Virus record (IMG/VR): IMGVR_UViG_3300027782_000151
Coordinates: 1-42,198 of that record
Strand: one strand, 5' to 3'
DNA from: a virus
Length of the DNA stretch: 42,198 nucleotides
Shown here piece after piece: positions 25,529 through 35,955 of the stretch. Under the pieces are notes generated by a model, which saw only the letters and a program-made list of their open reading frames with translations, searched no databases and had not been told where the DNA came from. Each line of letters opens with the position of its first letter. Within the stretch, counting starts at the first letter, position 1. The translations under genes and the position numbers were made by a program.

Positions 25529-25823
25529 ATATTGTTTGTATTAATTGTTCTTCATCTTCCCTAGAGTCCATTTCTGGTCCCCATTTTTCTATGGGACAGG
25601 CACAAGATAAACACTTAGTCTTGGCTGCTAGGGTACATCCACAATGTGTACAGTGTTTGTCAAACCTACGAGGTTTCTTGGGTTTGTTTTCAGAACACCA
25701 TTCACATGCATCACAGATAGCCATGCGTTCTTGACTCACCTGTCTTATATGTTCCTTCATGTCGTCTGCTGGAAAGAGGTTATTCTTCCACCCCTCGTAA
25801 ATCTGAGAGAAGTTGATCTTCAT
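25476..25823 (-). CDS. Cys-rich zinc-binding protein
   Basis: This 115-residue protein has nine Cys in three close groups: CDACEWC (37-43), CTHCGC (58-63) and CLSCAC (71-76). This is a pattern for two or more structural zinc sites, and PKKPRRF lies between the groups. The N-terminal ~30 residues are helical (INFSQIYEGWKNNLFPADD), and the C-terminal ~35 are acidic and flexible. The start at 25823 carries ACTACGTATG, a one-base variant of the start context seen at 6756, 16342 and 19389. It overlaps the IHF-like gene by 44 bases. Zinc-ribbon proteins of this type are frequent beside phage terminase genes; nucleic-acid or protein contact is the usual role. Confidence 0.7.
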   Translation of the reverse strand: MKINFSQIYEGWKNNLFPADDMKEHIRQVSQERMAICDACEWCSENKPKKPRRFDKHCTHCGCTLAAKTKCLSCACPIEKWGPEMDSREDEEQLIQTIYGKQGSENREDSTGQAN

Positions 25824-26166
25824 ACGTAGTTTTTGTTTTTAACAAATTGATCAGAGCTTCTGTTTTTTCTAGTGTCACCTGAGACGAACGTCTCTTTTGT
25901 TCAGATGTTGTCGTATCTGATATAATGTTTTCTATTGCCTTCTTCTTAGCGTTCAGTTGTCCTAGTCGTTTTGTAGCTTTCTTCTCATTGAAGTAAAACT
26001 TCCCAAAGCTAGCTATCTCAATACTGTTGTTTAGATCCATTGCCTCATTAGCAGACTGAAACTGGTGGTTTACCACTGTCTCAATTGTCTTCTCAGAGAC
26101 CATCATCTTCACAGCTAGTGTCCTAACCAAGAAGTCCTTAACAGACATGCTTATTGGCTTATCCAT
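25780..26166 (-). CDS. IHF/HU-like DNA-bending protein
   Basis: In this 128-residue protein, residues 7-70 follow the HU/IHF pattern. An N-terminal helix pair comes first (VKDFLVRTLAVKMMVSEKTIETVVNHQFQSANEAM), then the beta region NNSIEIASFGKFYFNEKKATKRL, in which SFGKF matches the GFGxF turn of the family. The C-terminal 55 residues are a charged helical extension not found in cellular HU (KKKAIENIISDTTTSEQKRR). IHF-like genes in the structural block are a hallmark of crAss-like phages. It may bend DNA at packaging sites or promoters. The start overlaps the end of the HTH gene by eight bases. Confidence 0.78.
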   Translation of the reverse strand: MDKPISMSVKDFLVRTLAVKMMVSEKTIETVVNHQFQSANEAMDLNNSIEIASFGKFYFNEKKATKRLGQLNAKKKAIENIISDTTTSEQKRRSSQVTLEKTEALINLLKTKTTYEDQLLSDLRGVEE

Positions 26167-26533: not shown

Positions 26534-26564
26534 CAAAGGTATGTATATCTTACCTATCTACAAA
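26534..26564 (-). promoter_or_regulatory. Consensus Bacteroidota promoter of the leftward packaging/virion operon
   Basis: Read leftward, TTTG (26564-26561) is followed by 19 bases and TACCTTTG (26541-26534), an exact match to TTTG-N19-TAnnTTTG. A copy of ATAATATAGCATTAA, on the same strand, lies 24 bases upstream (26602-26588). Confidence 0.78.
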
Positions 26565-26599
26565 TAACTAATTTAGTTATTGTAAAAGTTAATGCTATA

Positions 26600-26893: not shown

Positions 26894-26926
26894 CAAAGGT
26901 AGTGGTAAAAAATAATACCAACCAAA
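26894..26926 (-). promoter_or_regulatory. Bacteroidota-type promoter of the small membrane gene
   Basis: Read leftward, TTTG (26926-26923) is followed by 21 bases and TACCTTTG (26901-26894). The -7 element is identical to that of the next promoter; the spacing is at the long end of the usual range. ATG 26845 follows 48 bases downstream. Confidence 0.65.
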
Positions 26927-26948
26927 TTTATTTTATACCCTATCGCAT

Positions 26949-27005
26949 ATAATGTCCCTTATAAGGACCAAATTATATCTTATTGGGTATAATAAAGGAC
27001 ATTAT
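26949..27005. repeat. Inverted repeat around an AT-rich core
   Basis: ATAATGTCC (26949-26957) is matched by GGACATTAT (26997-27005). Inside lies the perfect palindrome CCTTATAAGG (26957-26966). An outer TATACCC just to the left (near 26934-26940) is echoed by GGGTATA near 26985-26991. Confidence 0.7.
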
Positions 27006-27058
27006 GTTCACAAATAAAGCTTGTTCACGTATTCGTGAACAGAAGGGAAATGTGAACA
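27005..27058. repeat. Symmetric four-half-site operator-like repeat
   Basis: TGTTCAC (27005-27011) and TGTTCACG (27022-27029) face CGTGAACA (27034-27041) and GTGAACA (27052-27058). Inner and outer pairs share the same centre, 27031.5, and each outer site is displaced by 17 bases. The inner pair can also form a hairpin with a TATT loop. Confidence 0.8.
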
Positions 27059-27060
27059 AA

Positions 27061-27126
27061 AGTAAAGCTATAGCTTGACCACAGGGGGTGTATAGTAAAG
27101 TTATAGCTTGACGTTCCATATGGAAC
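27061..27126. repeat. 19-base direct repeat pair followed by a 14-base palindrome
   Basis: AGTAAAGCTATAGCTTGAC (27061-27079) recurs with one change (GCT to GTT) at 27094-27112, exactly 33 bases further on. The first copy contains the palindrome AAGCTATAGCTT. The perfect palindrome GTTCCATATGGAAC (27113-27126) abuts the second copy. Spacing near three helical turns suggests protein binding on one face. Confidence 0.75.
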
Positions 27127-27310
27127 CATCCCCTGCTTAGGCAACAAAATTTTATATGGCCCCCCCTACCTTTTGTGTCCATGGGAGGAGAGCCTACTCC
27201 ACATCACAACCCCCTGTGCGATTTGGGATGTTGGGGGTGCCCCCCAGGGTCAGCGTGGCAGGCCTCAAAATCTGTGGCAAAAAGTTGCAAAAGAAAAATT
27301 GCCACACCCT

Positions 27311-27591: not shown

Positions 27592-27679
27592 GAACAACTG
27601 TAACAAGGTTCTGCAGGATCTCTGTCACCATTCAAGACTACGTGAGCTTGGGGGTAAGCGAAGCACAGTGCAGTTGTTC
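27592..27679 (+). ncRNA. Candidate structured RNA (three-way junction-like)
   Basis: GAACAACTG (27592-27600) pairs perfectly with CAGTTGTTC (27671-27679). Inside are two hairpins. In the first, GGT/ACC (27607-27609 with 27627-27629) extends to GCAG/CTGT with loop GATCT. In the second, GTG/CAC (27642-27644 with 27664-27666) extends to GCTT/AAGC with loop GGGGGT. No good protein frame crosses it, and it is not a tRNA because no T-arm is visible. It matches no RNA class I can name. Confidence 0.4.
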
Positions 27680-27694
27680 ATTCTTCACCATTCT

Positions 27695-27716
27695 CCAGTC
27701 ACAACCCTTTTAACAT
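27695..27716 (+). repeat. AACCCTTTT-type leader repeat, copy 3
   Basis: This 22-base element matches 27329-27350 at 20 positions (CCAGTCAC..., AACCCTTTTAACAT) and stands 39 bases before ATG 27755. CACCATTC directly before it (27686-27693) also occurs at 27626-27633. Confidence 0.55.
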
Positions 27717-27754
27717 ATTAACATTTTTTTATTCACAATTAAAGCTAAAACAAA

Positions 27755-28168
27755 ATGGCGTTAAATTTCAAAGTACGAGAAGCACGTGCACCAATTGCTT
27801 CATTAGGTAAAGTAGTAGATGTAGTAGGTAAAGGTGGAAAGATTGAGTTCCTACCAAACAACTATGTTGCTACAGACAGACGATTAGTTGCTTGCTTAAT
27901 CAAAGCAGATGGCACAGAAGAGCAAGTTACTTGTTCACAACCTGTTTCTGATGGCATTAGAAGCAAAGAGATTTCATTGAACCAATTATTTGGTTTTGAA
28001 ATCAAAGAACAAATCAGTTCAGCAGGTGAGGTTTACAACCAAATCAATATGCCTGATAACAATGCAGGCAGAATTAGCTTTAATGCTGATGAAATCACTG
28101 TGGAAGAGTTCAAAGTAGAAGCTCTTACAGAAGATAAGATTAAGAATTTGATTGCAGTCTCCTTGTAA
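27755..28168 (+). CDS. Early protein of unknown function, probably abundant
   Basis: This 137-residue protein starts MALNFKVREARAPIASLGKV. It has a beta-rich body (VVDVVGKGGKIEFLPNNYVATDRRLVACLIKADG) and a C-terminal segment with helix (ITVEEFKVEALTEDKIKNLIAVSL), without Cys clusters or membrane spans. It stands alone between a long leader and a strong terminator (28176-28207), and its codon use is regular, both pointing to a highly expressed single-gene transcript. A nucleic-acid-coating or host-modifying role would suit such an early gene, but I recognise no family. Confidence 0.68.
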   Translation: MALNFKVREARAPIASLGKVVDVVGKGGKIEFLPNNYVATDRRLVACLIKADGTEEQVTCSQPVSDGIRSKEISLNQLFGFEIKEQISSAGEVYNQINMPDNNAGRISFNADEITVEEFKVEALTEDKIKNLIAVSL

Positions 28169-28175
28169 TTAATAA

Positions 28176-28210
28176 GAGGGCAGTGTTCCACAAAGAACAT
28201 TGCTCTCTTT
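28176..28210 (+). terminator. Rho-independent terminator
   Basis: GAGGGCAGTGTTC (28176-28188) pairs with GAACATTGCTCTC (28195-28207) over 13 positions, two of them G-U, around CACAAA, followed by TTTATATAT. The wobble pairs exist only in the rightward RNA. It closes the gene at 27755. Confidence 0.82.
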
Positions 28211-28386
28211 ATATATATTATGAGGGTGTAGGGGCTAGGGGTTGAGGGATAACACACTGATTCTCAACAATTTCTGCGTGAAAGAGAGAAATGGTGTGGG
28301 TTTAATAGACCCTTTTAAGCATATTTAACAACATTGATCATTCATGCTATACAATATAATATATATAGCATTAAATAGACATTTAT
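28208..28386 (+). promoter_or_regulatory. Intergenic leader with AT-rich inverted repeat
   Basis: No gene is supported here. It holds ATGCTATA (28344-28351) facing TATAGCAT (28364-28371), which together form an AT-rich hairpin and include the motif GCATTAA also seen at 19483-19497 and 26588-26602. A weak GGGTTTAATAGACCC hairpin followed by TTTT lies near 28298-28316. No consensus promoter is visible. Confidence 0.4.
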
Positions 28387-35496: not shown

Positions 35497-35507
35497 AACA
35501 ATATTAT

Positions 35508-35777
35508 ATGTTAGGAAGACATCCTTATTTTAAACAAAAACAAACACAGATGCCAGATATTTCAATGTGCAAAGGTGGTAGTTGTCTACTAAGACTGAAC
35601 TGCCACAGATATACAGCTAAGGCTGAAGAACTAGGACAATCATTTTTTAGTGAACCTCCATATAAATTAGACTTTATGTTTGATGAACATCATGTTGGTC
35701 TTGGTGTTGCTACATTAAGTTGTTCTTATTTTTGGAACAATAAAGAATATAAAGATGAAAAACCTAAAAATAATTGA
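35508..35777 (+). CDS. Small Cys-containing protein, phage-type, unknown
   Basis: I place the start at 35508 (MLGRHPYFKQKQTQMPDISM), giving 89 residues. The segment MCKGGSCLLRLNCHRYTA shows Cys at regular six-residue spacing followed by an aromatic pair, a pattern common in small phage proteins and likely a metal site with His or a further Cys (LSCSY near the end). It overlaps the next gene by 23 bases. Function unknown. Confidence 0.58.
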   Translation: MLGRHPYFKQKQTQMPDISMCKGGSCLLRLNCHRYTAKAEELGQSFFSEPPYKLDFMFDEHHVGLGVATLSCSYFWNNKEYKDEKPKNN

Positions 35778-35955
35778 GGATTGGGAGAGAGAATATCTCA
35801 AGGATTTCATATATTTGCATGAACAGGGGCAGGATTGGAACGAAGCAATTCAGAAAGAGTTGAATAAGAAACAACCTGCTCGCATTGAAGTAATAGACAC
35901 AGATAAAATCCTAGAGAAACACAATGAACCTCACGCTAACGTTCTCCCATTTTAA
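35755..35955 (+). CDS. Small helical protein, unknown
   Basis: This 66-residue protein starts at MKNLKIIEDWEREYLKDFIY. It is helical and acidic in the first half, with a short basic middle (NEAQ..., NKKQPARIEVID). It overlaps both neighbours, as is typical for this gene run. A helicase-accessory role is possible by context only. Confidence 0.52.
   Translation: MKNLKIIEDWEREYLKDFIYLHEQGQDWNEAIQKELNKKQPARIEVIDTDKILEKHNEPHANVLPF

Follow-up and report, generated by a model that had tools for sequence, protein, structure and literature searches.

The closest described counterpart of the element reported here is the operator of the Streptococcus agalactiae abiE type IV toxin-antitoxin operon, at which AbiEi, described as monomeric, is reported to repress its own operon and to bind two 23-bp inverted repeats with a 3-bp gap, TGTTGCTTTTATACCACAAATAT-N3-AAAATTGTAGTGTAAAAGCAACA (PMC3985639). 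Two AbiEi monomers are further reported to bind with positive cooperativity and to bend the DNA (PMC7319586). A second group of related sites is formed by the operators of Bacteroidota AbiEi_2 genes (PF09952, described as 'Transcriptional regulator, AbiEi antitoxin, Type IV TA system'), which read TGTTCAC-N10-TGTTCACG-N4-CGTGAAC[AG]-N10-GTGAACA with steps of 17, 13 and 17 (as in loci L219, L232, L239 and L241) and abut the abiEi start codon. In this work we describe an array on a virus record that has the same half-sites and steps as these bacterial operators, but other spacers, and that stands as an orphan. Like the published streptococcal operator, it consists of two long inverted repeats with outer ends TGTT...AACA; it differs from it in its proportions (25-4-25 against 23-3-23), in the further TGTTCAC copy towards the inside of each repeat and in having no abiE genes behind it. 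We propose that the array is probably a copy of an AbiEi-type autoregulatory operator, carried without its operon by a crAss-like phage, which the AbiEi of the host is predicted to bind and which would act as a decoy or as a borrowed repressor site.

The window, by which we mean the whole stretch of DNA analyzed, is a virus record of 42,198 bp (IMGVR_UViG_3300027782_000151) and a fragment of a crAss-like phage, presumably from freshwater given the kind of records involved. The isolates with the best terminase matches are Leptolyngbya phage Lbo-JY46 (39%) and Cellulophaga phages phi17:2 and phi4:1 (31%), and no near DNA match to positions 20000-42198 was found among GenBank phage records. Relatives were obtained from IMG/VR through their terminase (best 80 of 493 confirmed stretches) and their DNA polymerase (best 80 of 85), with contigs of up to ~118 kb. 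The leftward genes follow the order HTH protein, HU-like protein, terminase, portal and capsid, the rightward set contains DNA polymerase, helicases and primase, and the array occupies the main divergent intergenic region between them, where the original prediction had placed it. The features that define the locus are the following:

27005 to 27058, no strand: 54-bp array of four half-sites, putative orphan AbiEi-type operator
27005 to 27029, plus strand: left 25-bp repeat, two direct TGTTCAC copies 17 bp apart
27034 to 27058, minus strand: right 25-bp repeat, inverse of the left and identical to it at 17 of 25 positions
27030 to 27033, no strand: 4-bp array centre, TATT (its reverse complement, AATA, in the other four phage versions)
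26159 to 26521, minus strand: 120-aa winged-helix-like (HTH) protein, first conserved leftward gene
25780 to 26166, minus strand: HU/IHF-type protein (Pfam PF00216, E 1.6e-6)

The four half-sites, TGTTCAC (27005-27011), TGTTCACG (27022-27029), CGTGAACA (27034-27041) and GTGAACA (27052-27058), were read directly and recovered by repeat and pattern searches. The outer and inner pairs share the centre 27031.5, with a step of 17 bp between inner and outer half-sites on either side, as had been predicted, and the array can equally be described as a pair of inverted repeats of 25 bp each, 27005-27029 and 27034-27058, flanking 4 bp. TGTTCAC occurs 8 times in the window against 7.23 expected, without enrichment, and the signal is the arrangement of the half-sites rather than their frequency: the array is the only perfect symmetric quad of 7-mers in the window, and no such quad arose when the whole window was simulated 300 times under a Markov-2 model with free spacing. 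The initial proposal of cooperative binding by two dimers survives as regards a cooperative type of operator; in place of the dimers, the site would probably hold two protein molecules, one per 25-bp repeat, as published for AbiEi (PMC3985639, PMC7319586).

An exact scan of IMG/VR for the quad returned 10 contigs, all in the clade of the window, with five distinct array sequences that include the window's own. Across these five versions one of the 30 half-site columns varies, against seven of the 24 spacer columns (Fisher p 0.016). A nested palindrome of this kind might instead work through its structure, as a hairpin or a cruciform formed by RNA or by single-stranded DNA, without serving as a protein site, and the predicted fold is indeed strong on either strand (−13.5 kcal/mol for the 54 bases as single-stranded DNA; shuffled sequences average −3.84, z −6.2). 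We regard this explanation as highly improbable, because the half-site sequence itself is conserved beyond what pairing requires, one outer pair is broken in L035, the quad recurs at the starts of bacterial AbiEi_2 genes, and a search for an RNA family in Rfam gave no more than two sub-threshold matches.

The bacterial occurrences were located with a relaxed pattern of 24 fixed bases, scanned against viral contigs and bacterial genome contigs, which matched 15 viral contigs and 29 bacterial loci, nearly all of the latter in Bacteroidota and mostly in Flavobacterium and its relatives. Half-sites and steps are kept at these loci, spacers are unrelated, and host and phage agree at the six half-site positions that the search left unfixed. 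Outside the fixed bases, phage and Flavobacterium arrays agree at 21 of 30 positions at best and at 15.4 on average, so that the best pair lies only moderately above the mean. At 15 of the 29 loci, tblastn places the start of an AbiEi_2 gene at 0-4 bp from the array, and a sixteenth, in a Verrucomicrobia bin (L220), was recognized by Pfam. The encoded proteins match PF09952 with E values of 2.4e-29 (L219) and 8.7e-25 (L224), and the gene after AbiEi_2 matches AbiEii (PF08843), above cut-off in L224 and just below it in L219.

The association was also assessed in the reverse direction, on 37 AbiEi_2 loci drawn regardless of the array (L252-L289 minus the fragment L260, representing the best AbiEi_2 matches; ten weaker Bacteroidota AbiEi_2 places and two second copies lie outside this sample). 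Allowing up to one mismatch, steps of 16-18 and a centre distance of 12 or 13, a quad is present in 29 of the 37, against 0 of 380 shuffled loci; L272, L274, L276, L277, L280, L282, L288 and L289 are the eight without it. A second pattern used alone identified 17 of 395 Bacteroidota genomes, against 0 of 395 for the reversed-pattern control, and AbiEi_2 adjoins 12 of these 17 loci; in L442, a second-pattern locus, the sequences of the neighbouring ORFs read like another AbiEi/AbiEii pair. No AbiEi_2 neighbour was detected for 13 of the 29 relaxed-pattern and 5 of the 17 second-pattern bacterial arrays, so another protein might use the site too. The phage array shares with AbiEi-type operators the two long inverted repeats, bearing the conserved half-site, around a short gap, and it has the half-sites and steps of the AbiEi_2 operators.

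A complete abiE locus is not what the phage carries: searches for abiEi (PF09952, E up to 10) found no match in any of 13 virus records, the window and the other carriers included, and the array is therefore an orphan AbiEi-type operator. A profile-based search of IMG/VR did yield two viral AbiEi_2 loci (L290 and L291), each with an array of its own. Scans with five-base half-sites detected at least 120 viral contigs with a centre distance of 12, and 36 with 13. Among the matches listed, 141 new viral loci (L292-L432), each covering part of its contig, contribute 115 further distinct arrays, and a single locus (L365) has a detected AbiEi_2 gene. In the listed 120 viral 12-type arrays, the positions that the search did not fix show a strong preference for T or A (T1 93, T18 91, A36 97 and A53 94), which argues that these are true sites. 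Compared with the array in the window, the orphan arrays of other viral contigs (L215, L216, L218 and L292-L432) have the same half-sites, with steps of 17/12/17 or 17/13/17, and different neighbouring genes, the nearest of which are varied and include terminases, structural genes and others. Those of L215, L216 and L218 have GIY-YIG or HNH/endonuclease VII-type genes at a distance of 99-287 bp, the L215 neighbour being named through its likeness to that of L218.

Within the phage clade the array is rare. In a set of 64 distinct upstream regions, each of at least 640 bp, it is present in four, the window counted. It is missing from L001, L002 and L005-L009, which have TerL identities of 94-96% and the same divergent gene order, and it is absent as well from L142 and L088. 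Carrier L020 and non-carrier L025 are separated by a clean 57-bp indel, with a left flank identical at 150 of 150 positions and a right flank identical at 57 of 60. The carriers are scattered on the terminase tree (56 rows), where at least four changes are required, and the window and the other carriers share 49-51 of 54 array positions against 16-29 of 60 in the ungapped flanks. The array is an optional cassette of 54/57 bp that is either present or absent. Its absence from close relatives that keep the gene order, which the original prediction had itself named as a refuting observation, speaks against the master early/late switch and the origin-binding site put forward there: the array cannot be essential as such a switch or form the core of an origin. 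The conservation across the clade expected of origin iterons was not observed, most of the clade being without the array.

These data bear on the possibility that a regulator encoded by the phage itself acts on the array to govern early/late transcription or the initiation of replication. The exact replication mode of crAss-like phages has been described as unknown (PMC10136315). The array occurs once per genome, located at the divergent junction in the company of other dyads, and the cumulative GC-skew minimum falls nearby in most records (in G002 the global minimum is elsewhere). GC skew also follows gene strand, however, and the two are inseparable here, so the minimum is no proof of an origin. 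No plausible gene is common to the compared carriers and missing from four non-carrier genomes, the window being a fragment; the ten ORFs that passed this filter were judged spurious, being short and mostly intergenic or overlapping longer genes on the opposite strand (one of them, G008 35507-35857, encodes 116 aa, has a 43% match in G009 and is absent from the window). The HTH protein at 26159, suggested at the outset as a binding partner, is nearly identical in L020 and L025 by alignment, so this protein is not the partner that discriminates carriers from non-carriers; its profile-comparison probability against AbiEi_2 is also only 23%, and pairwise BLAST returned nothing. With close relatives keeping the gene order and lacking the array, a switch operated by a phage regulator appears very unlikely.

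The array could also be a relic, a functionless operator left behind after an ancestral abiE operon in the intergenic region lost its genes. It sits exactly where other cassettes come and go, the rare AbiEi_2 genes of viral contigs (L290, L291) occur together with their array, and bacterial genomes too hold arrays without a detected AbiEi_2 neighbour. A decayed site would nevertheless fit poorly with half-sites that are conserved while spacers drift, with an element that stays almost invariant through at least four changes on the tree, with the lack of AbiEi_2 matches in the 13 virus records and with the orphan arrays of many other viral contigs, and we consider this origin unlikely. The recurrence of the geometry with drifting spacers, in bacteria as in viruses, is the pattern originally anticipated for a genuine site.

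If the array is an AbiEi-type operator, the source of the site type would be the type IV toxin-antitoxin operons of Bacteroidota, which encode an AbiEi_2 repressor/antitoxin and an AbiEii-like nucleotidyltransferase. Upon infection of an AbiEi_2-bearing cell, two AbiEi molecules would occupy the two 25-bp repeats cooperatively and presumably bend the DNA. The array may then work as a decoy, titrating the repressor/antitoxin away from the host operon while phage DNA multiplies, as a borrowed repressor site acting on phage transcription, in keeping with the host-like -7 element that overlaps it in the window, or as a signal sensed by the host. AbiEi_2 is uncommon, with 10 positives among 199 Flavobacterium-group genomes and 37 among 296 from Bacteroidota, so many hosts would be without the binder. 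Two promoter-like elements are relevant to these options:

27057 to 27064, minus strand: TACTTTTG, TAnnTTTG match overlapping the outer half-site and facing the leftward (structural) genes
26923 to 26930, minus strand: CAAATTTA (minus-strand reading TAAATTTG), conserved and a candidate -7 element for the leftward genes

The sequence TAnnTTTG is the reported Bacteroidota -7 promoter consensus (PMC6847099). Among the 16 AbiEi_2 operators of the 24-fixed-base pattern set, 12 have it across the outer half-site, at the same place as TACTTTTG in the window, and it is rarer in the independent AbiEi_2 set (3 of 19 distinct arrays). The other four phage versions lack the overlapping element and so, among the matches listed, do all 114 other distinct viral arrays, where ~2.7 would be expected by chance. 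This weakens the case for borrowed promoter control and makes simple promoter repression less likely as a general role of the viral arrays.

That orphan switches of this kind occur in many other phages points to interference of phages with AbiE defence, or to sensing of phages by it. A broader reading, which we offer tentatively and regard as rather doubtful, is that widespread orphan operators in Bacteroidota phages reflect competition between phage and AbiE, either as phage decoys or because AbiE adopted a phage element, its antitoxin being a direct sensor of phage DNA. In the latter version, incoming phage DNA would pull the antitoxin off its operon and set the toxin free. To our knowledge, the triggering of AbiE by phage infection is not settled. 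Judged from sequence, an AbiE-repressor operator on phage DNA would constitute a concrete physical link between an incoming genome and a toxin-antitoxin operon, one extending beyond a single phage to the 115 other distinct arrays among the viral loci listed, and AbiEi would be a first candidate DNA-binding partner for the regulatory hub of crAss-like phages. No report of AbiEi operators on phages was found in the titles and abstract openings searched.

The intergenic region around the array is a patchwork in which other dyads come and go, among them a GTTCC....GGAAC palindrome and the following elements:

27061 to 27080, plus strand: class A dyad AGTAAAGCTATAGCTTGACC, clade-wide neighbour of the array
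27094 to 27113, plus strand: second class A dyad, 33 bp further
27113 to 27126, no strand: perfect palindrome GTTCCATATGGAAC, with parS-like GTTYCACGTGRAAC in relatives

Class A dyads (20 bp, TGTMAAGC-WATW-GCTTKACA) are widespread in the clade as pairs ~33 bp apart and are confined to the junction region in 13 of the 15 records with a match, and likewise in the window. They were rejected as a Flavobacterium operator, the degenerate pattern being found without mismatch in 0 of 398 Flavobacterium-group genomes. Sites within two mismatches of the chromosomal parS core GTTTCACGTGAAAC occur in 18 of the 64 distinct regions, exact in L048 and L065, against two parS-like sites in 733 kb of shuffled sequence. 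ParB was rejected as a partner for these parS-like sites, since no ParB_N match above cut-off was found in 10 phage genomes. The rightward set of G009 encodes a ParB/Srx-like protein (27597-28325) with kin in G002 and G003 (~242-268 aa), below the Pfam cut-off.

A conserved non-coding block, GGGAG-GAGG-TACTCC...ACCCC...GTTGGGG...CCCC, precedes the rightward genes (window ~27180-27250) and was found by motif scan in 26 of the 64 regions. It has no Rfam match; its consensus fold over 21 rows reaches −10.3 against a column-shuffled mean of −0.35, and the window's own block alone folds no better than shuffles. Next to the conserved CAAATTTA lies TGTGGATAA, which we take to be a DnaA-box-like site, in the upstream regions of L035, L038, L050, L051, L060, L066, L068, L072, L132 and L144. 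Just upstream of the HTH gene, the palindrome AATAACTAATTTAGTTATT (~26563-26581) is kept with drift in the compared relatives and is a candidate autoregulatory site.
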